Source: a virus
Length of the DNA: 50,272 nucleotides
IMG/VR virus record: IMGVR_UViG_3300038441_001406
Coordinates: 1-50,272 of that record
Reading direction: 5' to 3' (one strand)
Part shown: piece after piece, positions 14,240 through 32,126 of the stretch
Layout of the letters: each line of letters begins with the position of its first letter
Numbering within the stretch: the first letter of the stretch is position 1
Notes under the pieces: model-generated
The model's database searches: none
What the model was told of the DNA's origin: nothing
The model's input: only the letters and a program-made list of their open reading frames with translations
Program-made: the position numbers and the translations under genes

Positions 14240-15720
14240 TCTCACTTGTATTGTCATTGGTTGCGTCCGCGCATGGCGTGACGCAGTTGCTTAACCCCTA
14301 TAGCCTGCAAGTTGTAGGCGGCACCCCGACCCCCACTCCGACCGCAACCCCAACGCCGACCCCGGCAGGACTCAAACCTTTGGTCGGCGGGATCATTCAC
14401 TTGATCGGCGGCTCGACGCCGTTCTGTGATAAGATCGACTCAGCTGTTTCCTTGGATTACCCGTGGGTCGATGGCTACCGCGGACGGACCACTTGGAAAG
14501 CGGTGCAGCCCAGCGCGCCGCCCGCAGAGTTGCAATGGGAGTGCATCGACCGAGCCTTGGCGACCTGCGCAGCTCACGGAAAATTCCTAACTCTATCCAT
14601 AGGGGCAGGAATCAACACGCCGGATTGGGTCTATGACAGTGCGCCAACCGTGCCGCGATTCCCTTGCGACAATGATACCGTCCCCGGCAACGAAAGTAAC
14701 ATGCCGTGGTCGGCCAATCTCAATTACCTGGCTAAATGGAAAACCTTCATCGCTGCCTTTGCGGCGCGCTACGATAACAACCCAACTCTGCGCGCCGTGT
14801 TCTTTACTGGCCAAGGGCAGCAGATTGTCGAGTATCACGTTACGGCCACAACGGAGAACTTCGACCGCTGGCGAGGATTAGCTGTAGCTGACGGCCGCTT
14901 CCCTGATGACACCGGCCCGCCTAACCTCAAGGCGGAAGATAAAGCCTTGCGCTTTGCCACCAAAGAAGTCATCGACGCTTACCAATTGGGTTTCCAAAAG
15001 ACGCCCCTTCATGCGACCGGTGGCAATCCATGGAGCGGCGGTCAAGCGGGGAATGACACAGAGGCTTACCAAGAGTCACTGAGCACTACGGCGCGGAGCG
15101 GCCTGTCCAACTCCACGTTGAAGGCTACCCTGACTCATACCAACATCCCGCAACTCAGGACCTATCCTTGGGGCAGGCAAGCCATCTTTTCCAGTGCGGA
15201 TCATGGCCGTTTTTACTCACCCCCGATTGACGATCGTGTTTACACGGATGCAACCCTTACAGTTGGCTCAACCACGATCACATTCCCCACCGGCGCAGAT
15301 GGATTCACTCCACCGGGGACGCGGGATGTGGGTCATGTCATAGCAGGCTCAGGTATCCCGAACACGCCGCCTTCGACCATCGTCGCGGTCAACAGCACGA
15401 CCAATATAACTATTTCAGCAGCGGTAACGAGCAATGCCGGGACAGGAAAGACGATCAATGTCGTGGACCAACCGCCGCCGCCGCAGTGCATTGACGATTA
15501 TTTGCGGAACGCTTTCGACACAGGCTGCCAATATACCGAGGTCTATGAGTTCGACATCGAAGGGAGCGGAGTCAATCCCACAATTAACAACGCCACCTTC
15601 ACAACACATCAGCCCCGTCTGAAAACCAACATACCAGGCGCGCTGCGCAAGGTAACACCGACGCCATCACCAGCAGCTAAAGGAAAGGCTAGTCCGAAGC
15701 CGAAAGGTAAAAAACCATGA
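14218..15720 (+). CDS. Exported glycosidase-like protein, 500 aa
   Basis: Residues 1-20 are a signal peptide (MRLRLSLVSLVLSLVASAHG). Residues about 35-48 are a Thr-Pro linker. Residues about 55-350 look like a TIM-barrel glycoside hydrolase: a WVDGYRGRTTWKAVQPS start, GKFLTLSIGAGINTPDWVYD with the typical strand-then-TPxW pattern of family 42-like barrels, and a later ATGGNPWSGG loop. The candidate acid residues cannot be assigned by eye. A beta-type insertion follows (about residues 340-420), and the C-terminus is Lys/Pro-rich ([13 protein letters not shown]). It overlaps the upstream gene by 22 bases and the next by four. A polysaccharide-cleaving role is inferred. Confidence 0.6.
   Translation: MRLRLSLVSLVLSLVASAHGVTQLLNPYSLQVVGGTPTPTPTATPTPTPAGLKPLVGGIIHLIGGSTPFCDKIDSAVSLDYPWVDGYRGRTTWKAVQPSAPPAELQWECIDRALATCAAHGKFLTLSIGAGINTPDWVYDSAPTVPRFPCDNDTVPGNESNMPWSANLNYLAKWKTFIAAFAARYDNNPTLRAVFFTGQGQQIVEYHVTATTENFDRWRGLAVADGRFPDDTGPPNLKAEDKALRFATKEVIDAYQLGFQKTPLHATGGNPWSGGQAGNDTEAYQESLSTTARSGLSNSTLKATLTHTNIPQLRTYPWGRQAIFSSADHGRFYSPPIDDRVYTDATLTVGSTTITFPTGADGFTPPGTRDVGHVIAGSGIPNTPPSTIVAVNSTTNITISAAVTSNAGTGKTINVVDQPPPPQCIDDYLRNAFDTGCQYTEVYEFDIEGSGVNPTINNATFTTHQPRLKTNIPGALRKVTPTPSPAAKGKASPKPKGKKP
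14321..14364 (+). repeat. Thr-Pro codon repeat
   Basis: Tandem ACC/CCG-type codons encode a short [12 protein letters not shown] linker after the signal peptide of the glycosidase-like protein. It is the first of four such linkers in the window. Confidence 0.85.
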
Positions 15721-18700
15721 ACCGACGCCTTCTCTTTTTTCTTCTGGTCATAGGCTTAAGCATCGGGCAGGTCTGGCCCCAAGCGCCACCGACGATCATC
15801 AACATCCCGGTCGTAGCGCACCCCGCGGGCGATCCTACCGCGACTCAGACAGGCGTTCTCTATGTGCCTGACCCAGTGTTCTTCCCCGGCCCTCGACCTT
15901 GTGTTGTGGGAACCAAAGCAGGACACTTCCAAGATGGCGGCCTCAACACTCTCACTACTTCGTTTACTGACTTAGCCAACCGCGGTTATCTCTGTCTGGC
16001 CTTTGATGTTCGGTTGCTCAATCCACCGGGGATAACTGGACAAACCACCTCTGGCAAATATCCAGAACAGACCGATGACATGAGGGCCGGGATTCTCTAT
16101 ATGCGTCCCGGCCACGAGATTCAAACCGTCCACGGTAAAGCTGTCAACGGATTCGTAGCTACGTTAGGCGGCAGCGGCAGCGCTCACCATGCCATCTACA
16201 AAGCAATGAATGGAGTAGTCGGTTTGGATAGGGCGGACGCGTGCATCGCTATGTCTCCGGATGTGGACTTCTCAGACCGAACGCCACCGCTTACCGATGC
16301 TGACCCGTTTGCTACAAAGAGTGCGGAGTATGCCAACGAACTCGTGACGAATTATCCGGCCCTCTTAGCCAAGTCACCGATCGCGCTCATCTCGAAAAGT
16401 AACAAACCTATTTGGCACGGCAACGGCGACAACGAAACCATGCCGTTGTCACAGCAGACGCGCTTCAAAAACGCAATCACAGCTGCGGGTGTCACTAACT
16501 ACACATGGAAGACGAACGGCGGCCCGGGCGTGGGCAACCAGCATTCCTTTGCCATGTGGCCCTTCATCAAAGTGGAAGCCATGAACTGGCTCGATGCCCG
16601 CGTAGCTGAGTTCAAAGAGACCCGGATTTGCGCTGACCTGTCTTACGCTGAGGTGAACAATGCAGTGAATGGGGTGGTGACAACGGGCCACTCGACTTGG
16701 ACAACGGTGGCACCAGATGGCGCAACGGTCATGCTTCCGGCCGGATCATCTACTTGGGCAGTTGGCTCCCTGCTCACGGTAACGAAAGACATCCAGATCA
16801 TTGGCGCAGGAATAACTAACACCATCATCAGTGGGAAAAATCAGATAATCAAACTCACTGGCAACAACACCAACTTGGTCTCGCTGCCCTACACACAGCG
16901 CCTAAGCGGACTGACGTTGACTTCGACGGCACCTTCAACCTTGGAACCTCTTATCATCAACGGGACCAATGTGATTATCGAAGGCGTTGGCGGCAGCTTA
17001 ACTGGAGGCTTCAGAGTCGACCACGTTTTATTCAATGGCGATTTCGCTAACCGGAAAACCATCAACATCCTGGGATGGAATGAGGGCGTGGTCGATCACT
17101 GCATTATTGATACAGATGTTTCCATCAGCGCGGGAGAACACGTTATCATCAACCATGCCACATCGCCGAGTGGAACGGGCGGCTATGGTGACTGGTCATG
17201 GGCTAACCCTTACACCTTGGCGGGTCCGCATCAGGTTTATTTTGAGGATTGTATCTTCAAACGCTCTCCCGGTGGCACTGATACGGAACAGTGGGCCGCA
17301 GCATTACCCGGTGGCGGTCGCTACACGGCTCGTCATGTCACCAGTTGGGGACAGTTAGGCGGTGGACATGGTGCCCGCGAAACAGGGGCAGTCAGAGGCA
17401 CCGGACAGCGGGCAGGAGAGGCATACAAGAATCTCTTTATTCGACAGATAGAAGCCCCTGCCCAAAGCAGTAATTTCAACGCTCCTCGTGCTGGTGAAGG
17501 TGTAACTTGGGGCAATCGTTGGATTCGCCCCGGTGCCACTGTGCAGTCCGGCATCCCACAAACCCCGCTAGCTATCTATGCTTACACTATCGGAGAATTT
17601 AGTGGGACTAACTGGGGTCCTGCCGATTCTCTGAACCCGTTCGATCAGAACCAGAAAGGAACTTTCACTTTTAATACTCATGGTCAGGACACCAACCCCA
17701 TCTACACGCACACTTATTCGCCGGATGCCTCTTACACTAATGGAACCGTGGTCGCAGGCGTGGATTCTATTTCCACCAATGGGGATGTTTACGCGCATGG
17801 CGTGGGTGGCTCTAACTGTAAGGGCACGGCTTGTGGCGAGCCGGGAGGTTTTGCTTCCTATGAGTATCTGTTAGGCACTGGTTTGGACATGCACGGTGTG
17901 ATGGATTATTGGAGAGGGTTTGTAATTCGCAACTTGAACACTCCAAGGTTGGCGCAAGAAAACATCAGTTGGGCCTACATTCTGAAATCGAATCCCACGA
18001 CTGGAATTTTGACTATCATACAAGCTAACGATCATACGGATTCGTCGATACATCACAGAATGAATCTTGTTCCCGGTGACCCATGGGAGATTAGAAAAGT
18101 CAAATCTTACTGGAACGTTCCCGGTGGTGGATCAATGGATACGTCTCTTGATAGTAATGCCTTTAATCCACCTCTATTGGTGAGTGGCAGTCCAAATCCT
18201 AGATGGACAAATGAGCCAGCCGTAGGCAATCATCAATGGGACAATAAATACACGATTACGACCGGCGCTCCCTTCGCACTTGTCGATCCTTATAACACTG
18301 ACACGGGGGATTATTCTTTAGCTATTCGCGGGACCACGAACGCTGCCAAGGTCGGTTATCCCTATGACCCTGCCACCCTTGCAGGCAGTGCCGGCCCGCC
18401 TGAAATCAGACCTGACACTCGTGTTGGGGCCGATGCGGAAGCGTGGTCATTGGTTCCTAGTTCATGGGCTTCTGGCACCGGAGCAAATTCTCTGGCCGGT
18501 TCCGCTTCTGTTTATGAGCCGGGAAGTGGCGGTTACAAATACCCGCATCCATTGGTTACAGTTCCAGCTGCAACACCAACACCAACACCAACGCCCACAC
18601 CTACTCCGACGCCCAGCCCGACACCTACACCTACGCCTCAGCCCCCGGGCTGTCCGCGCACTTGTGCTGACTTGTCTTTCGCCGAGGTCAATAATGCCGT

Positions 18701-21700
18701 CACTGGAGTTACGAGCACCGGCCACACGACTTGGACAACACCCGCGCCGGATGCCTGCCATGTTATCCTGCCCGCAGGGACAGCGGACTGGGGCACGAAC
18801 AGGCTTCTGGTTAACAACCTCATCACGATCAAAGGCGCGGGGATGCTCCTAACCAACATAGATACCTCGTTCAGTTTCAATGGCACACCGCCGACCTTGC
18901 GCGGGTCCTTCGGCTTCATCATCGCCAACGCTTCCAGCCCAACTGTCACTTGGGGATTGCAGGGCCTGACCATTCATCAGGTCACAGCGGTTAACGGTTC
19001 GCAGACATTATATGTGCAAGGCGGGAGCACAACAGCGAACCCGATCAAAGGAATCAGCGCAGGCTGGCGCATGAGTGACGTAAAGATTTACTCGCACAAC
19101 TTCGGTGGACCGCTCATGAGTTTCCGCGACACCATAGGGGTAAACGATCACTGCATCTTCGACAGTGGCGGAGACACAAGTCAGTGGGCCGACTTCCAGA
19201 ACGAGCACTGGGGCGGCCACCAGAACTCGCATGGGGCTTGGATGGAACCGATCCAATATGGCACCGACCGTTTTATGTATTTCGAGGATTGCCTCATGCT
19301 ATGGGGCCGGTGCGACTCGCACGAGGGCGGCATGTTCGTGGTCAGGCATTGCCGGTTTAAGAACGCGGCCGGAGCCACCGATCACGGGACCGAAAGTCAT
19401 CCCCACGGAGTGAGAGCGCAGGAAGTCTATAACTGCTGGTATACGGAGCACCCGGGCCCGGGCACGGAGAATCGGTCCGGCACCTGCATCATGCACGACA
19501 ACATTCAAGAGCCAGCGACAGGCATCACGAATCTTTTCCATCGGCGGCTGGTCAACCACCGCAACCGGATCATCAAGAACGCAGGCAGTCCGGACGGGAA
19601 CAATCCACACTGGAATAGAGCGCCCGCAAGCTTCACCGCGCCCGAAGATCAAAACTCAGAGTTAGCTAACCCGCTGGCTCTGCCGAGCATTACGAACGAG
19701 CCGATCAATGGCAACGTGTCGCCCGATCTTTTCACCGGCACAGTCACTAGCGCGATGCTGGTCAACACCACACTAATGACTGACACAGCCGCTAATGGCG
19801 GGGCAGGCTGGGCCGTTAACCAATTCCTCTGTGCGCCGCTCGACGGGACCGGATTGAATAGTTGCGGTTTCACTTACACCCTGGTCAACACGGACCATCC
19901 TGATATGTCAACGGCCTATATCGTGAGTAACACGGCCACGACTCTCACCGCTGGGATCAACGTCGGGGGCGGCAATGATCCGCCGATTAGCTTTGCCTTG
20001 GGCGAGCACTACGCCATTCGCAAGACTTTCGCGGCATTGGACCAGCCGGGAATGGGCATGATGGAGATGAGCAATGCGGATGCGGATGGCATCGGCGACG
20101 TATTTACATTGCCCAATAAGAACACCACGCCCGGGACCTGCACAATTCCCAATGTCAATAGTCCCGCAGGAGCCAAGGCTATCGGCTGGCAGAATCAGAA
20201 GCTTGATCCTTGCTACGGCTGGAACAACTGGAGCGGGCCGGGCTTCACTCAAGGGCGCGAGCTAAAATTCAAGAGCGAGCAAGGCCAGATAAAACAAGGC
20301 CGCGACTTCTTCAACACACAGAAGCCAGCCCCGGGCTACGGCTCATTGTTAGGCGGTTTGATTAGTGAGACCTATTCGCCCGGATATCCAGTCATCACTT
20401 CGCCAACCACAGCGCAACGGCAGGTTGGAGCCAAGGGCATCAGCGGGATTCTCGACAGCGAGATCCTGAATACGAATACAGTGACAGGCGTTGTCACAGG
20501 GTTCACTTACCCGCACCCTCTGGCGGGCGGGCCTGCGCCGACCCCGACCCCAACTCCAACACCTACCCCAAGTCCAACCCCGACGCCCACGCCGACTCCA
20601 ACTCCAACCCCGACGCCCACGCCGACCCCGACGGCGACTCCAACACCTACGCCCCCGCAATGCGTGCGCAATAGTGTTGATGTCTCTTACGCGGCAGTGA
20701 ACAACGCGGTTAATGGAGTGGTCTCAGGCAGCTACAACACTTGGACAACTCCAGCACCAGACGGTTGCACCATCGTCCTGCCGGCAGGCACAGCTACTTG
20801 GACAACCTCACTCATCGTAACTGCCAATCTAACAATAATGGGCCAGACCATGGTTACAGGAGCAGGCGGCCCCGTGGCTTCGGTTGTGGTTAACGATCAG
20901 ACCATCATTATCGACGAAGTCACTCCGCGGAAGCAAATCATCTACATGCAGGAGACAGACGAAAACGAGCCAGTGCGGATTACTGGGATCACCTTTCGCA
21001 AAGGCGTCGTCCAAACCGGCCAATCCTTCGACGGCTTAGTTAGGTTTTCCGGTAACTGTAAGAAGGCCAGAGTCGATCATTGCTTCTTTGACACATTGTA
21101 TGGCGTCGGCGTGAGCTTCTTTGGCTGGATGTATGGCGTAGTCGATCACTGTTATTTCAAGGAGTTGTTAGCCCATCCGGTTATCGTGGAGCACCAGACT
21201 TGGAATGGCGCTGACTGGGGCCATGGTTCTTGGGCCGATGATCCTTGGTGGGGCAGTGACAAATTCATCTTCATCGAAGATTGCACGGCCACAGCGCAGA
21301 AAGCGATAGGCGATGGCTTCGATTCTTTTGAGGGCGGCCGCTATGTCATTAGGCATTGTGACCTGACAAGCTTGCGAGTTGGCAACCATGGCACTGAAGG
21401 CCAAGGTCGCAGTGGGAAGCAAATTGAGTGTTACGAAAACGCTTTCCACTTACGGACCGATGCCACCAATAAAACAAGCGGCCAGCTGCGCGGCGGCTCG
21501 ATGCTGCAATGGGGCAACACATTCGATCCAGCATGGGTCAAGGGCACAACCTTGCAGGTCTATCGGCCTTATAAGCCTTCGCCTCACTACGGCCCGTCTG
21601 ATGGCCTGAATCTCTGGGATAAGAACCATTGGAACCCGGCCGCGAGCGTTGATTATTACGCGATTGGGACGCACACCGGAGCGGTAGATGCAGCTAACCT

Positions 21701-22586
21701 AACAGACAGCAACCCTTCCAAAACATGGTGGGATAACGACGGCACGCCGCGCACTGGTCCATGGACGATCAATCGATGGTTCCAGCAAGGGGTAAATTAC
21801 ATGGTGCGAAATGTGACGAAAGAAGTCCCGGGCGATGCGGCAGAGAATCATGTTTGGTCTGTGGCCAACTCCGGCGATACAGTCACTGTTTCAACCACAA
21901 GCTTCAATGGCCAGCACGTTCAGTTTGATCCGGGTGACGTTTACCAAATTTGGCGCGTGGACCAAGTTTTGGATTCACCGGGCACGGGCAGGAGTGATCT
22001 TATGCAAGGTCAAGGCACTTGGACGCCAACCGGACCGGACGGCGGCATCACTCCTTATGCCGACCCGCATCAAGTGCTGGAGCCTTCTTATTGTTGGAAT
22101 CAAAGTTTCTGCTACGAAGCGAGTGGCACCAATCTCTTAGAAGGCCGCGACTATTTTAACAACATACCCAAACCGGGTTACACGCCGTTCCTTTACCCGC
22201 ATTACTTGGCTTCGAGCGGTTCAGGCCAGCAGATCGACGTCCCAATCAGCCATGACTTCGGCAACGTGATTATTGGCACCTCAGTGATCTATGACATTCC
22301 GGTTAGGAATGGGGGCAACTCTACAACCACAGTGAGCGGCGTCAGCTATCCCCCGCCTGCCTATAGCGGCCCCACTGACGGCTTCATTATTCCCGGCGAT
22401 CTGGAAGCAACCATCACCAAGACCATGACTTTCAATCCTCTGACTGCCGGCACTTTCGATGGGGATGTTATCTTTTTTAGTGACGGTGTCGGGAACGGCA
22501 CCATGCACGTTACCGGGGTCGGTGTAGCCCCGCCCGCACCGCCCGCCGAGTTGAATGTTATCCCGATGATTATACTTCGACGATGA
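15717..22586 (+). CDS. Giant exported esterase plus triple beta-helix protein, 2289 aa
   Basis: Signal peptide at residues 1-22 ([20 protein letters not shown]). Residues about 25-300 form an alpha/beta-hydrolase esterase domain with the nucleophile elbow G151-G-S153-G-S (last Gly replaced by Ser), an Asp in GNGDNETMP and a His in GNQHSFAMW. Then come three related right-handed beta-helix modules starting near residues 305, 983 and 1652. Each opens with a (D)(L/V)S(Y/F)AxVNNAVxGV block, carries VDHC or NDHC turns and a (F/I)EDC turn, and ends YPHPL or YPHYL. Modules 1-2 and 2-3 are joined by Thr-Pro linkers. Residues about 2165-2280 form an Ig-like domain of the SPD-2/Hydin kind ([20 protein letters not shown]). 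It is probably a polysaccharide lyase/esterase or adhesin; which is not decided by sequence. Confidence 0.75.
18571..18645 (+). repeat. Thr-Pro codon repeat, linker between beta-helix modules 1 and 2
   Basis: About 75 bases of degenerate six-base units (ACNCCN) encode a (TP)n linker. Similar linkers at 20536 and 48766 share near-identical units, which makes them possible sites of recombination between modules. Confidence 0.85.
20536..20658 (+). repeat. Thr-Pro codon repeat, linker between beta-helix modules 2 and 3
   Basis: About 120 bases of ACNCCN units encode the longest (TP)n linker of the window. Within it a longer unit (CCAACCCCGACGCCCACGCC) occurs twice, so slippage or unequal exchange has probably acted here. 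Confidence 0.85.
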
Positions 22587-26495: not shown

Positions 26496-27278
26496 ATGGC
26501 AGAAGTAGAGGAAATCAAAGAGGAAACATTGGGAGTCAATCCGCCGGTCGATCTCATCGAGTTCGGCCAAGCTAAAGATGGGACCACTCTGCATTGGGCG
26601 GTCAAAGAACCAGACAGAGACCAGTTCGCGCCACCTTGGTATTGCGTCCTCGCTGTGCACGGCGGCGGCTTCACTGGCGGGACACCAGGCACGCCGATTG
26701 GTGTCGCTGGGCCGGATCTCGCAGCGGCAGGCTTTATCGCTTTCTCGCCCGAGTATCGCTTAGCGCCGCCCGGAAAGATCGCAGGGCAGACATCGCTCGG
26801 CCGCTATCCGGACCAGACGGATGACTTGGCCGTGGCCATTGATGCCGCGACCAAAGACGATCGAGTGAAGGGCAATCCGCAAATGGTCGGCGGCAGCGGC
26901 GGAGCTTATCAGACAGCGTTTTGGGCAGCGAAGGGCGTGCTCACGGGAGTAGCTCTCTCGCCTTGCTCGCAACTCGATGATGCGATTGATCGGCGGAACT
27001 TCCCAACCTTTGCGGCTAAGTGCGACAACTACGCTGCGGGCCAATTGAGGGAAGCCTCGCCCAACACCTATGTGAATGAGGCTTCCAGACCGCTCCTGGT
27101 CGTGGCTTATTCAAGTGACCAGATGCCGCCCCGGCAATACAGCCGACTCGTGGAAGCCCTAGCTGCTTTCAACATCGAGCACGGCGCCATCCTGCTGCGA
27201 GGCAAAGGGCACTCATGGGATGCGTGGGTAAAGGTGAAAGCACAGGCCATCGCTTTTCTGCAAGAGCATAAAGCATAA
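26496..27278 (+). CDS. Alpha/beta hydrolase (carbohydrate-esterase-like), 260 aa
   Basis: ATG 26496 has GAAAGGAAAG upstream. The protein carries the hallmarks of an alpha/beta-hydrolase esterase: an oxyanion HGGGF motif at about residue 55, YRLAPPGK after it, the nucleophile elbow G132-G-S134-G-G136, an acidic site in YSSDQMPP and the catalytic His in GKGHSWDAW near the C-terminus. No signal peptide is present, so it acts in the cytoplasm or as a virion part. It shares the motifs G(R/K)YP(D/E)QTDD, GGSG, D-x-MP and GHSW/QHSF with the N-terminal domain of the giant exported protein, so the two are paralogues. A substrate such as acetylated polysaccharide is inferred. Confidence 0.75.
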   Translation: MAEVEEIKEETLGVNPPVDLIEFGQAKDGTTLHWAVKEPDRDQFAPPWYCVLAVHGGGFTGGTPGTPIGVAGPDLAAAGFIAFSPEYRLAPPGKIAGQTSLGRYPDQTDDLAVAIDAATKDDRVKGNPQMVGGSGGAYQTAFWAAKGVLTGVALSPCSQLDDAIDRRNFPTFAAKCDNYAAGQLREASPNTYVNEASRPLLVVAYSSDQMPPRQYSRLVEALAAFNIEHGAILLRGKGHSWDAWVKVKAQAIAFLQEHKA

Positions 27279-27303
27279 ACGAGCGAGAAAGCGTTTTGAT
27301 GTG

Positions 27304-27987
27304 ATGAGCGCAAGCAAGAGAGCAGCGAGCAAGAAAAACGATGGAGAGGCGTCGCAGCGCTCGCGCCCGCGCCGTTCCAATGGTGAGCATGAGGTCGAAA
27401 TGCTCAACCCTGCGAAGCTCGTGCCTTATGAGCGCAACCCGATGCAGCATCCGCCCGAGCAGATCGACCTTATCTGCCGCTCGATTAAGGAATACGGATT
27501 CACGATCCCGCTCCTGATTGACGAGAACAATATGATCCTCGCCGGTCATGGGCGGCAGACGGCCGCATTGAAGATGGGCCTGACTCAGGTGCCCGCAGTC
27601 CGCAAATCCGGACTGAGCGAAAACCAGAAGCGGGCCTATATCATGGCGGATAACAAGATCGCCCGGAACGGCGAGTTTGACTGGCGCTTAATCAGCGAGG
27701 AATTGAAAGCGCTGGATGAGGCTGGGTTCGATCTCGCTCTGACCGGCTTCCGTGACTTCGAGTTTGGCCCGCTGATTGAAGCGGACTGGACACCGCCACC
27801 CATTCACGAGAGCCAACTGGGCGAGCTGGACGTTTATCACATCACGGTAACGGGCCTGCAAAAACAATGGATCGACCAGGCGCATACCAAGATGAGGAAC
27901 GAAATGAAAAAACGCGAGCTACCGCTGCCCGAAGCTCTGGAATTGATATGCCAAAAGTATCTCGGGAAAGTCGCAGTGCGAAAATAG
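27304..27987 (+). CDS. ParB/Srx-fold protein without methylase domain, 227 aa
   Basis: Residues about 30-115 are a ParB-type N-terminal domain: LNPAKLVPYERNP, then EQIDLICRSIKEYGFTIPLL, then the ILAGHGRQTAALKMG motif (GHGR is the ParB/Srx signature). The following YIMADNKIARNGEFDWRLI block is the part that in many phage and plasmid proteins precedes a DNA adenine methylase domain, but here the chain ends after a charged helix. ATG 27304 is preferred over GTG 27301. The end overlaps the DpdA start by 40 bases. In bacterial Dpd clusters a ParB/DndB-superfamily protein (DpdB) partners with DpdA; position here suggests a comparable helper role (inference). Confidence 0.75.
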   Translation: MSASKRAASKKNDGEASQRSRPRRSNGEHEVEMLNPAKLVPYERNPMQHPPEQIDLICRSIKEYGFTIPLLIDENNMILAGHGRQTAALKMGLTQVPAVRKSGLSENQKRAYIMADNKIARNGEFDWRLISEELKALDEAGFDLALTGFRDFEFGPLIEADWTPPPIHESQLGELDVYHITVTGLQKQWIDQAHTKMRNEMKKRELPLPEALELICQKYLGKVAVRK

Positions 27988-28886
27988 CAGCGCCGACTAT
28001 TCGGCTGGCTGCGACTTGCGCGCTCATGGGGCACAACAACGAAGCGAACATCACTGCGCGTTATCCTTTTCACCGCAACAACATGGAAGGCCCGACGGTG
28101 CGCCTCGCTCATGTGCCGGGGGCGCAGGGCGACAACTGTTTGCTTGGTCAGCGCGGGACCAAAAAACTTCCAGCAACCAGTGCGCCGGCGCTGCTCGTCA
28201 GTTATTTTTATCTGGAAGACTGGTTAAAGAACCGGCACCGCTACATTATCCGCGACTGGGTGCTGGACTCGGGCGCTTTTTCCGCGCGGGAAAAAAACAT
28301 TGAAATCAACCTGACCGATTACATCGAGACCTGTAAACGACTCATCGACGAGGAAGATCAGTTAACAGAAATCTTCGCTCTCGATGTCATTGGCGACTGG
28401 AAGAAGTCGCTCTCCAACACAAAACGGATGTGGAAGGCAGGCATCCCGGCCATCCCCTGCTATCACCTGGCTGAGCCATGGGATCATCTCCTCGGCCTCG
28501 CCAAGGATTATCCGAAGATCGCCATTGGTGGCATGTCGCGGCTGCGCGGCAAAGCCATCACGACTTACATCGAGCAGTGTTTCGCCCGCGTCTGGCCCAA
28601 GCCGGTGCACGGTTTTGCCGTCGGTGGCCGCGATCTCATCATGCGTTTTCCGTGGCACTCGGTGGACGCGACAAATTGGGAATTAGGCCCGTGTGGATTC
28701 GGACGCTGGAATGCCTTTGGGCAGTTGAGTGTTCGGGGCTCGAAACAAAATCTTCGCTCCGAGATAGAATTTTATTTGGCTCTCGAACGGGAAGCGCGCT
28801 CCCGATGGTCAAAAGAAATGGCGAAGCTTGACGGGCTTCCATCGTTGCGCGAACAACGAGACGCGCTATGTCCTCGACGATCCTGA
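27948..28886 (+). CDS. dpdA: DpdA-type DNA 7-deazaguanine transglycosylase, 312 aa
   Basis: DpdA is a DNA-acting relative of tRNA-guanine transglycosylase that swaps guanine for preQ0. Key features seen: VLDSGAFSA with Asp107 (TGT enzymes have DSGGFQ here), FALDVIGDW, a KIAIGGMSR turn, HGFAVGG, and HSVDATNW with Asp240, where phage DpdA proteins have SVD(S/A)T-x-W, the likely nucleophile region. About 310 residues is usual for phage DpdA and shorter than tRNA enzymes. ATG 27948 is chosen; ATG 28026 or 28083 are also possible because the first 45 residues look poorly conserved. It overlaps the ParB-like and QueC genes. Neighbouring queC, queD, queE and folE genes supply the substrate. Confidence 0.8.
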   Translation: MPKVSRESRSAKIAAPTIRLAATCALMGHNNEANITARYPFHRNNMEGPTVRLAHVPGAQGDNCLLGQRGTKKLPATSAPALLVSYFYLEDWLKNRHRYIIRDWVLDSGAFSAREKNIEINLTDYIETCKRLIDEEDQLTEIFALDVIGDWKKSLSNTKRMWKAGIPAIPCYHLAEPWDHLLGLAKDYPKIAIGGMSRLRGKAITTYIEQCFARVWPKPVHGFAVGGRDLIMRFPWHSVDATNWELGPCGFGRWNAFGQLSVRGSKQNLRSEIEFYLALEREARSRWSKEMAKLDGLPSLREQRDALCPRRS

Positions 28887-29536
28887 TTTATAGCGGTGGT
28901 TTGGATAGCACAGTCCTGCTTTACCGGCTGCTCTTCTTGAAAGAAGATGTTCGCGCTCTGAGCATCAACTATGGGCAACGGCACTTGAAAGAGATCGCAG
29001 CGGCCCGCATGATCGCGGTCAGAGCTGGCGTGACGCACAAGGTAGCGGATCTCTCCAGTGTGCGACAATTTCTGCGTGGGAGTAGCCAGACTGATCCAAG
29101 CGTGGAGGTGCCACACGGGCATTACACGGACGAGTCGATGAAACAGACCGTGGTCCCAAACCGAAACATGCTCATGCTTTCAGTGGCGCTCGCGTGGGCT
29201 ATCAGCGAAAAAGCAGACTCTATCACTTACGCGGGGCACTCCGGCGACCGCGCCATTTATCCTGACTGCCGGGAAGAGTTTGCCAGTGCCTTCAACACCG
29301 CAGCCCTTTTGGCCGACTGGCATCAAGTCAGACTGGAACGACCTTTCATTGATATGACCAAGGCTGAGATCGTGACCATGGGCAATGAGCTTGATGTGCC
29401 CTTCGGTCTGACCTGGAGTTGCTACGAAGGGCGTGCCCAGCATTGCGGGCGCTGCGGCACCTGCGTCGAACGACAGGAAGCTTTCCGAGAGGCGAACGTA
29501 AAAGACCCAACCGAGTATGACCTGATATGTTGTTGA
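28868..29536 (+). CDS. queC: QueC, preQ0 synthase
   Basis: QueC converts 7-carboxy-7-deazaguanine to preQ0 using ATP and ammonia. Seen: the PP-loop SGGLDST at residues 9-15, SINYGQRH at about 36-43, PNRNMLMLSVALAWA, a YAGHSGDRAIYPDCR block, and the zinc site C185, C193, C196, C199 (CYEGRAQHCGRCGTC). The 222-residue length is typical. The gene overlaps dpdA by 19 bases and the P-loop gene by 10, so the operon is tightly coupled. There is no amidotransferase-type QueC extension, so the base made should be preQ0. Confidence 0.93.
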   Translation: MSSTILIYSGGLDSTVLLYRLLFLKEDVRALSINYGQRHLKEIAAARMIAVRAGVTHKVADLSSVRQFLRGSSQTDPSVEVPHGHYTDESMKQTVVPNRNMLMLSVALAWAISEKADSITYAGHSGDRAIYPDCREEFASAFNTAALLADWHQVRLERPFIDMTKAEIVTMGNELDVPFGLTWSCYEGRAQHCGRCGTCVERQEAFREANVKDPTEYDLICC

Positions 29537-30156
29537 TTACCGGGATGCAACGCTGCGGCACTTCGCTGACGGCCGACTTTGTTCGGGCTTGCGGCTATCC
29601 AATGACCGGACCCAACGATGCAGTGGGCAAATATGAGGATCCGGAAATCACGATGGCGTATCGCTACATCCTGAAAGATGAAATGTTTCCTTGGGACGGC
29701 TACCCGTTTTACATCCCGAAGCATCTGAGTCAGCCGTTGCACGACATCGAGCGGCCCGCAGCCAAGTTCGCCTACTTGATGATGGACCCCGTCTTCATGC
29801 AAATCTGGATTGAGCACCGCGGTCACAAACACGATCGCATGTTGATCCTGGCCCGGGAGACGGAAAAGATCGTGCGGAGCAAAGCCAACACTCCAGAACG
29901 TGCCCGCCTGTTCGCTCTTGACTCGCACCGGCTGCGCTTGACCGCAGAGCAACTGAAACAGAACTGGTTCGACTCCTTCATGCTTCTCCTCAATAGCGGC
30001 ATCCCTTATCGCGTCCTCAAGTTTCCAATCTTCCTCGACGACTACGATGCAGTCCGCGGGGCGCTGCAAGAGTTCGGCGGGCTGGAAAAGATTCCCAATG
30101 ACGCGGCGCTCTGGCGGACTATGATCGACCGCAAGAAAGTGACGGCGGAAACATGA
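29527..30156 (+). CDS. Sulfotransferase-like P-loop protein inside the preQ0 operon, 209 aa
   Basis: The N-terminus ITGMQRCGTSLTADFV has the P-loop style of PAPS-dependent sulfotransferases (R-x-GT-S/T), and MLILARETEKIVRSKAN at about residues 101-117 resembles their 3'-phosphate-binding segment with Arg and a later Ser. The rest is helical with a KFPIFLDD segment. Length is short for a sulfotransferase (usually about 250-300). It overlaps queC by 10 bases and queD by four, so it is part of the modification operon. It might sulfate or phosphorylate a precursor or a modified base (inference). A related nucleotide kinase cannot be excluded. Confidence 0.6.
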   Translation: MLLITGMQRCGTSLTADFVRACGYPMTGPNDAVGKYEDPEITMAYRYILKDEMFPWDGYPFYIPKHLSQPLHDIERPAAKFAYLMMDPVFMQIWIEHRGHKHDRMLILARETEKIVRSKANTPERARLFALDSHRLRLTAEQLKQNWFDSFMLLLNSGIPYRVLKFPIFLDDYDAVRGALQEFGGLEKIPNDAALWRTMIDRKKVTAET

Positions 30157-30587
30157 TCACCTGCGCCAAACGTTACGAGAACTTCCCCTGCGCGCATCGA
30201 GCGCCCGATCATGACGGCCACTGCAAATTGATTCACGGCCACAACTGGGCCTTCGATATTGTTTTCGCAGCAGAGCGGCGGGACCAGAATGGATTTGTCG
30301 TCGACTTCGGCAAGCTCGGACCGCTGAAAGAAAAGCTGACGGAGTATTTCGACCACACCTTACTCTTGAATGAGAACGATCCGTTAAGTGCCTCAATCGA
30401 CTTGTATCTGACGGCGCACAATATCGGGAATGTCGTGCTCGTGCTTGATTGCTCTTGCGAAGGGATCGCCGAGCTTGTCTTCAATCTGGCCGACGACATG
30501 GTGCGCGGTCTGACAAGAGGGCGGGCCGGGGTCGTGCGGGTCACGGCGCACGAGGACACAAAGAACTCTGCCACCTATCGGCCATGA
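30153..30587 (+). CDS. queD: QueD, 6-carboxytetrahydropterin synthase
   Basis: QueD makes 6-carboxy-5,6,7,8-tetrahydropterin from dihydroneopterin triphosphate, the second step to preQ0. Seen: zinc His15, His28 and His30 (CAHRAPDHDGHCKLIHGHNW, residues 13-32), the catalytic Cys24 four residues before HGHNW, VVDFGKLGPL for the next strand, and an FDHTLLLNENDP segment with the usual DH. At 144 residues it is a little longer than the common 120. A short insertion follows DCSCEGIAELV. It overlaps the P-loop gene by four bases and queE by four. Confidence 0.92.
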   Translation: MITCAKRYENFPCAHRAPDHDGHCKLIHGHNWAFDIVFAAERRDQNGFVVDFGKLGPLKEKLTEYFDHTLLLNENDPLSASIDLYLTAHNIGNVVLVLDCSCEGIAELVFNLADDMVRGLTRGRAGVVRVTAHEDTKNSATYRP

Positions 30588-31300
30588 TTCGGATATCAGA
30601 AATCTTCGGCCCAGTGATACAAGGTGAAGGCATCCATATCGGCGAGCCCACAATTTTCGTTAGGGTCGGCGGCTGCGACTATCGCTGCTCATGGTGTGAT
30701 ACGATGTATGCCGTCGACCCCATTCACCGCGCCGACTGGCATCCGATGAGTGACGCAGACATCTGCGCTGCGGTGCAAGAGTTAAGCAGTAAGCCCATCC
30801 TAATCACGCTCTCCGGCGGCAATCCAGCGCTCTACGACTTCGCCAATGTCATCGCCCACATGCAGGCCAGCGGTTATCACTTCACGATCGAGACGCAAGG
30901 CAGCATCGCGGCCAACTGGTTTCGCCTGCTCGATTCCATGACGCTCTCACCAAAACCGCCAAGCTCGAATATGCCGACCGATTACCAGAAGCTCGAACGC
31001 TGCATGGACTTTCTTGAACCCGACCGGATCAACCTAAAGATCGTGGTAGCCGATCAAGAGGACTATGAGTATGCGCGCCAGACCGCAGCGCGCTTTCCGC
31101 ATCTGCGCTGCTTTCTTCAGGTCTGCAATCCCAACCCGACCAGTGACACGTCACATCCATTCGATTTGGAACGCGAGCGCGACCTGCTCTTAGCCAAACT
31201 GCAATGGCTGACTGAGTTGGTTCTAGCGGATAGCTGGTTCAAAGCGACAGTGCTCCCACAACTGCACGTTCTAATTTATGGCAACCGGCGCGGCGTCTAG
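30584..31300 (+). CDS. queE: QueE, 7-carboxy-7-deazaguanine synthase (radical SAM)
   Basis: QueE is the radical SAM enzyme that contracts the pterin to 7-carboxy-7-deazaguanine. Seen: FGPVIQGEG at residues 8-16, the cluster motif C31-x3-C35-x2-C38 ([10 protein letters not shown]), [10 protein letters not shown] at about residues 84-93 where family members have TGGEP, and SPKPPSSN for the later SAM-binding strand. ATG 30584 overlaps the QueD stop (ATGA); a longer upstream frame runs wholly through QueD and is rejected. Length 238 is usual. The gene overlaps the FolE fusion gene by 23 bases. Confidence 0.92.
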
Positions 31301-32126
31301 GAAGGTTCTCTGGCCCGAGATCATCAGTCGCGTTGACGCACTGCCCCGCGATCACATCTACTACGGCATCCCTCGCGGGGGCACGATTGTGGCAGGGCTG
31401 GCTGCGTCGCGAGATTTAATCGTGACTGACAATCCAGCAGAGGCCACCGCTTATCTCGACGATATCGTTGACAGCGGCGCCACCAAAGCCAAATGGGTCG
31501 GCAAACCTTTCTTCCCACTGTTCGAGCGCGACAGTGCCTGGTTGGTCTTTCCTTGGGAACAGGATATGCAGACCGACGCGGAAGACATCGTCCGCCGCCA
31601 ACTCGAACTGATCGGCGAGAACCCAAACCGCGAAGGATTGAGCGCCACACCGCGGCGCGTCGTGGCTAGCTGGAAAGAGTTGTTCGCAGGATATCAACAG
31701 ACCGCCGAGGAGGTTCTGCGAAGCGACTTCGACGCAGACGGATACGACGAGATGATCGTCTGTCGGGACATCCAGTTTTATTCAACTTGTGAACATCACC
31801 TACTGCCCTTCTTTGGCCGCGCTCATGTCGGGTATCTGCCAAACAAACGAGTCGTCGGATTATCCAAGCTGGCGCGCCTGGTCGAAGTGTTCGCCCGCCG
31901 TCTCCAAATTCAGGAACGATTGACGCAGCAAATCGCGCAAGCACTGAACGAGCAGGCCCGACCGCGCGGCGTCGGCGTGATCTGCGAAGCGACGCACTTC
32001 TGCATGTTGTGTCGCGGGGTGCAAAAGCAGGAGTCAACCATGGTAACATCCGCGCTGGTTGGTCTCTTTCAAAAGCCCGCAGTGCGCGCCGAATTTCTCC
32101 GGCTGGCGCGGCGCTGCGAAGCTTAA
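31278..32126 (+). CDS. folE: Phosphoribosyltransferase-like domain fused to GTP cyclohydrolase I, 282 aa
   Basis: Residues about 95-282 are GTP cyclohydrolase [38 protein letters not shown] (Cys and His zinc ligands in CEHH), [19 protein letters not shown], and [19 protein letters not shown] (third zinc Cys). The enzyme makes dihydroneopterin triphosphate from GTP, the first step to preQ0. Residues about 10-90 are an added domain with [14 protein letters not shown] and the PRPP-binding-type loop [10 protein letters not shown] at residues 60-69, as in phosphoribosyltransferases. It ends WLVFPWEQD. The stop TAA is the left arm of hairpin copy 5. What the extra domain does is unknown; nucleotide handling or GTP supply is plausible. 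Confidence 0.88.

Follow-up and report, generated by a model that had tools for sequence, protein, structure and literature searches.

A divergent sulfotransferase-like gene between queC and queD in the preQ0 cassette of an uncultivated virus

Introduction

In other phages, a gene set comprising dpdA, queC, queD, queE and folE makes preQ0 and exchanges it into DNA, and no sulfotransferase is named among the phage preQ0 systems described in that work (PMC6884629). The cassette of Arthrobacter phage Sonali places ParB, DpdA, QueC, QueD, QueE and FolE in this order on one strand; its queC directly overlaps queD, and no sulfotransferase gene is found there.

Sulfotransferases themselves share a small set of active-site elements. 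Across diverse members, a positively charged residue in the 5'-PSB, an invariant serine in the 3'-PB and a histidine or glutamate base are essential (PMC6637879). Among small sulfotransferases of phages and Proteobacteria, the Sulfotransfer_3 type (PF13469) presents its motifs in the order GMxRxGTS, G-x-aromatic-E(D), DP and R-x7-S; KDP also occurs in TPST. Here, we describe a virus in which a divergent protein with this motif order is encoded inside a preQ0 cassette, and we weigh what it might do there.

Results

The window (the whole stretch of DNA analysed, 50,272 bases) is the record of an uncultivated virus. Its tail module is of the contractile type, with genes for tail sheath, tape measure, baseplate and tail fibre. 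Between the tail fibre and baseplate genes, positions 15717-22586 encode a 2,289-aa protein for which a weak HYDIN-type Ig-like match was all that came up. The preQ0 cassette lies on one strand, downstream of a tail-fibre gene and of an alpha/beta-hydrolase-like gene (BD-FAE/Abhydrolase_3-like, 26496-27278) that directly precedes it, and runs ParB-like, DpdA-like, QueC, sulfotransferase-like protein, QueD, QueE, FolE (Table 1). With dpdA, queC, queD, queE and folE in one operon, this is a phage preQ0 DNA-modification cassette, which differs from that of Sonali by one additional gene, placed between queC and queD. For the DpdA-like protein, an internal ATG was chosen as the start over that of the longest open reading frame (27867). 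The N-terminal extension of FolE (31278-31592) holds a phosphoribosyltransferase-like motif of 14 residues and gave no match in a Pfam search.

Table 1. Genes of the preQ0 cassette and motifs of the sulfotransferase-like protein, in window coordinates.
Feature	Position	Strand	Basis or remark
ParB-like protein, first gene of the cassette	27301..27987	+	phrog_620, E 2e-44
DpdA-like (TGT family) base exchanger	27948..28886	+	phrog_887, E 4e-31; relatives
queC	28868..29536	+	PF06508, E 1e-61
Sulfotransferase-like protein gene	29527..30156	+	209 aa, ATG to TGA
5'-PSB P-loop GMQRCGTS, residues 6-13 (Arg9)	29542..29565	+	profile alignment
GKYED motif, residues 34-38, putative catalytic base Glu37	29626..29640	+	Glu in 57/57 relatives
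MDP, residues 86-88, degenerate KDPR	29782..29790	+	K in 57/57, R in 56/57 relatives
3'-phosphate-binding segment RETEKIVRS, residues 110-118 (Arg110, Ser118)	29854..29880	+	R and S in 57/57 relatives
queD	30153..30587	+	PF01242, E 1e-25
queE	30584..31300	+	phrog_2076, E 3e-38
folE, GTP cyclohydrolase I, N-terminal extension of ~100 aa	31278..32126	+	PF01227, E 2e-72

The open reading frame between queC and queD is a genuine gene. Its codon-position GC (0.57/0.38/0.73) and its codon usage resemble those of its neighbour genes, and codon-usage log-odds are highest in its own frame (+0.36), compared with about -0.4 to -0.5 in the other plus-strand frames and +0.15 in one minus-strand frame. The gene overlaps queC by 10 nt at its 5' end and queD by 4 nt (ATGA) at its 3' end, which suggests that it is translationally coupled to both; overlaps this tight could reflect coupling that is functional, beyond shared transcription. 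A first-pass annotation of this DNA had delimited exactly the same frame, had reported overlaps of a few bases with queC and queD and had argued that the gene is not a random neighbour, and these points agree with the overlaps measured here and with the gene's true integration into a complete preQ0 operon.

Searches with the protein itself were uninformative: Pfam (including PF13469), PHROGs, NCBIfam and PDB sequences gave no credible match, and direct protein searches of 50,697 phage records, 72,556 plasmids, IMG/VR and GTDB genome contigs yielded neither a credible match nor a close homologue. DNA patterns for GMQRCGTS picked up chance matches and, besides these, one unrelated sulfotransferase (L087), which was rejected. 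Within one bacterial phylum, about 300 genomes returned weak matches only, two of which are true sulfotransferases of the same family, matched over residues 2-49.

Profiles were more sensitive. A hand-written consensus bait, partly inspired by the query, served solely to reach one real sulfotransferase, and the profile statistics rest on real sequences with the query excluded. Against a first profile, built from small sulfotransferase domains of plasmids and one phage record, the query scored 17.3 bits, compared with at most 6.2 bits among 2,000 shuffles; with five phage sulfotransferases added to that profile, its score was 24.5 bits. A profile of 77 sulfotransferases from phages and bacteria (61 phage sequences and the 16 earlier ones) matched residues 2-187 at 36.0 bits (E 6e-10), whereas no shuffle out of 2,000 came within E 1. 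The relatives so collected match PF13469, several of them over its cut-off, and a profile from a 58-row alignment, which includes the query as one row and is therefore not query-free, finds tyrosylprotein sulfotransferases among the PDB sequences (E 3e-10). These results support the label "sulfotransferase-like" for the protein.

From the sequence alone, AlphaFold gave an unusable model (pLDDT 37). The model on the 58-sequence alignment reached pLDDT 82 and pTM 0.79, on an alignment that consists of sulfotransferases, leans the model to that fold and makes it dependent on the sequence result. Its best solved matches in Foldseek were human TPST1 and TPST2 with PAP, and its top viral structure match was a phage sulfotransferase family protein. 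In VIA, rows 1-35 were all sulfotransferases (Z 11.9 to 10.1), with the N-sulfotransferase NDST among the close folds; the first kinase stood at row 36 with Z 10.0, a score near the last of the sulfotransferases because the folds are related. The fold search proposed with the first-pass annotation has thus returned a sulfotransferase and not a different fold, and the alignment-dependent model supports this predicted fold. In comparison with TPST1 and TPST2, whose sequences the family profile also matches, the query lacks the KDP lysine, is shorter by about 60 or more residues and is 9-14% identical.

The motif order of the Sulfotransfer_3 type is found over the whole length of the query. The two segments that had been read on first pass as resembling PAPS-binding parts, GMQRCGTSL (residues 6-14) and RETEKIVRS (residues 110-118), both occur in the protein, and the sulfotransferase profile pairs them with its 5'-PSB and 3'-PB far above chance. 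The positive 5'-PSB residue, the Arg and Ser of the 3'-PB and a Glu between the two motifs are all retained, so that Arg9, Ser118 and Glu37 account for the three residue types described as essential (PMC6637879), with Glu37 the putative catalytic base. Invariance of the P-loop among the 57 relatives is partly built in, as RSGTS was demanded by the pattern used to find them; no such selection applied to the other columns.

The query differs from the Sulfotransfer_3 type in its low identity (about 12-24%), in 13 residues that the alignment shows as inserted behind the 3'-PB, and in the loss of three residues. In its degenerate KDPR, Lys86 is replaced by Met and the Arg is deleted, and Arg122, present in 55 of the 57 phage relatives, is absent. 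Judged from its KDPR motif, the protein is a divergent relative within the superfamily and not a typical member of the KDPR subfamily. The lysine of human TPST2 that matches the Lys86 position helps to stabilise the transition state. Since all three lost residues are near-invariant in the relatives, the protein may be altered, weakened or inactive.

The gene was found in no other preQ0 operon when about 75 other virus records that encode relatives of QueC or DpdA (49 + 26, many of them fragments and a few perhaps near-duplicates) were searched over their whole length with the family profile. Two of the preQ0 records carry a distant sulfotransferase-like gene elsewhere, and neither was counted: in G022, a 196-aa protein with a degenerate P-loop (SPRGGSS) is encoded on the minus strand outside the preQ0 region (G022:C1:63687-64277, L203), and in G352 a C-terminal match lies far from queC. 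A match in G036 was too short to count (10 residues), and a weak profile match at L023, a preQ0 locus, was discarded as a short internal stretch without a P-loop. In the reciprocal search, only one of 45 sulfotransferase-bearing virus records, G406, had a QueC-like match; it spans 56 residues within a frame of 498 aa and probably belongs to a different PP-loop enzyme. No preQ0 gene was recognisable within 6 kb of 70-odd sulfotransferase loci, and scanning viruses with QueD brought up no relatives. Around five of the sulfotransferase loci, where ten neighbours were scanned, GT2 glycosyltransferases, a methyltransferase and a polysaccharide deacetylase adjoin three; the scanned neighbours of the remaining two had no Pfam match.

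The queC-queD junction is variable in its own right. Among 37 loci with queC before queD (the window included), 15 leave little or no room between the two genes, and in others the space is taken up by further genes, among them a thioredoxin and a Vut_1/YhhQ-type transporter. In one virus contig (L035:2678-3337), the intervening gene is Vut_1 (YhhQ/VUT-type, of the preQ0/preQ1 transporter family), and in a group of virus contigs it is a thioredoxin-like gene of 80-84 aa, at L039:7113-7358 and at equivalent positions in many of L040-L059. The junction thus takes different accessory genes in different phages, the sulfotransferase-like protein being one of them. Its insertion was seen once and is without precedent in the collections searched.

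Discussion

The link of the sulfotransferase gene to preQ0 is not conserved. The first-pass annotation had taken the absence of any such conserved link as counting against its own proposal, and neither the other preQ0 records nor the Sonali cassette shows one. The rarity of the gene in preQ0 operons, together with the non-preQ0 context of its relatives, makes it look like an accessory insert. With moderate confidence, we favour an accessory sulfotransferase, inserted in the preQ0 cassette, that acts on an acceptor other than preQ0, consistent with phage relatives that have no preQ0 gene within 6 kb and with a junction that takes other inserts. A small, divergent gene of the PAPS-type sulfotransferase fold would have been inserted between queC and queD of a ParB-DpdA-QueC-QueD-QueE-FolE cassette, and its product would be co-translated with the cassette. 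The protein would bind host PAPS via Arg9, Thr12 and Ser13 of the 5'-PSB loop and the 3'-phosphate pair Arg110/Ser118, use Glu37 as base and pass sulfate to a non-preQ0 acceptor, for example a host or virion glycan, a peptide or a small molecule. The identity of this acceptor is a guess by analogy with the context of relatives.

Alternatively, the protein may have the sulfotransferase fold but be catalytically dead or repurposed, keeping the ability to bind PAPS, PAP or another nucleotide in an accessory, regulatory or counter-defence role. Loss of the KDPR Lys and Arg and of Arg122 makes catalysis itself uncertain, and the phosphate-binding anchors stay in place while these residues are gone; strong divergence and the lack of a close homologue in our searches point the same way. 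However, Glu37, Arg9 and Ser118 remain, and an intact frame with normal codon usage speaks against decay; we consider loss or repurposing of the activity somewhat unlikely.

A role in the 7-deazaguanine pathway, in which sulfate would be placed on preQ0, a derivative or the modified DNA (e.g. by N-sulfation) to give a new anti-restriction hypermodified base, is suggested by the position of the gene within a complete preQ0 operon that it overlaps on both sides, by its sulfotransferase homology and by NDST among the close folds. The chemistry is less accommodating: preQ0 offers a nitrile, ring nitrogens, a ring oxo group and a 2-amino group, without a hydroxyl or aliphatic amine, so the base could be sulfated directly only by an unusual N-sulfation. 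Searches of Pfam and PHROGs recognised no QueF-like or Gat enzyme in the cassette that would make an amine, amide or amidine, which further lowers this reading. The absence of the gene from the operon in about 75 other preQ0 virus records and from the Sonali cassette, and a homologue family that is not linked to QueC also count against it, and we regard a role in the pathway as improbable. More doubtful still is the specific claim that sulfate is put on a 7-deazaguanine base or its precursor by the protein, giving a phage with sulfo-modified DNA; we know of no other case of a sulfo-modified nucleobase or of enzymatic DNA-base sulfation. The first-pass proposal of sulfate added to a modified base goes beyond the evidence.

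Its other option, transfer of phosphate, is unlikely, with Thr12 of GMQRCGTS at the position of the Walker A lysine. That the protein is a P-loop kinase with a nucleotide or DNA as substrate is very unlikely: the fold is also that of nucleotide and shikimate kinases, which stand further down the structure lists (in VIA from rank 36), but the Walker A motif GxxxxGK[ST] is absent, and the succession of 5'-PSB, Glu and 3'-PB is that of sulfotransferases.

If the gene were to act on the base, it would mean enzymatic sulfation of a DNA base and a new anti-restriction chemistry. Even otherwise, a preQ0 cassette with a sulfotransferase-fold protein is unprecedented in the collections searched.
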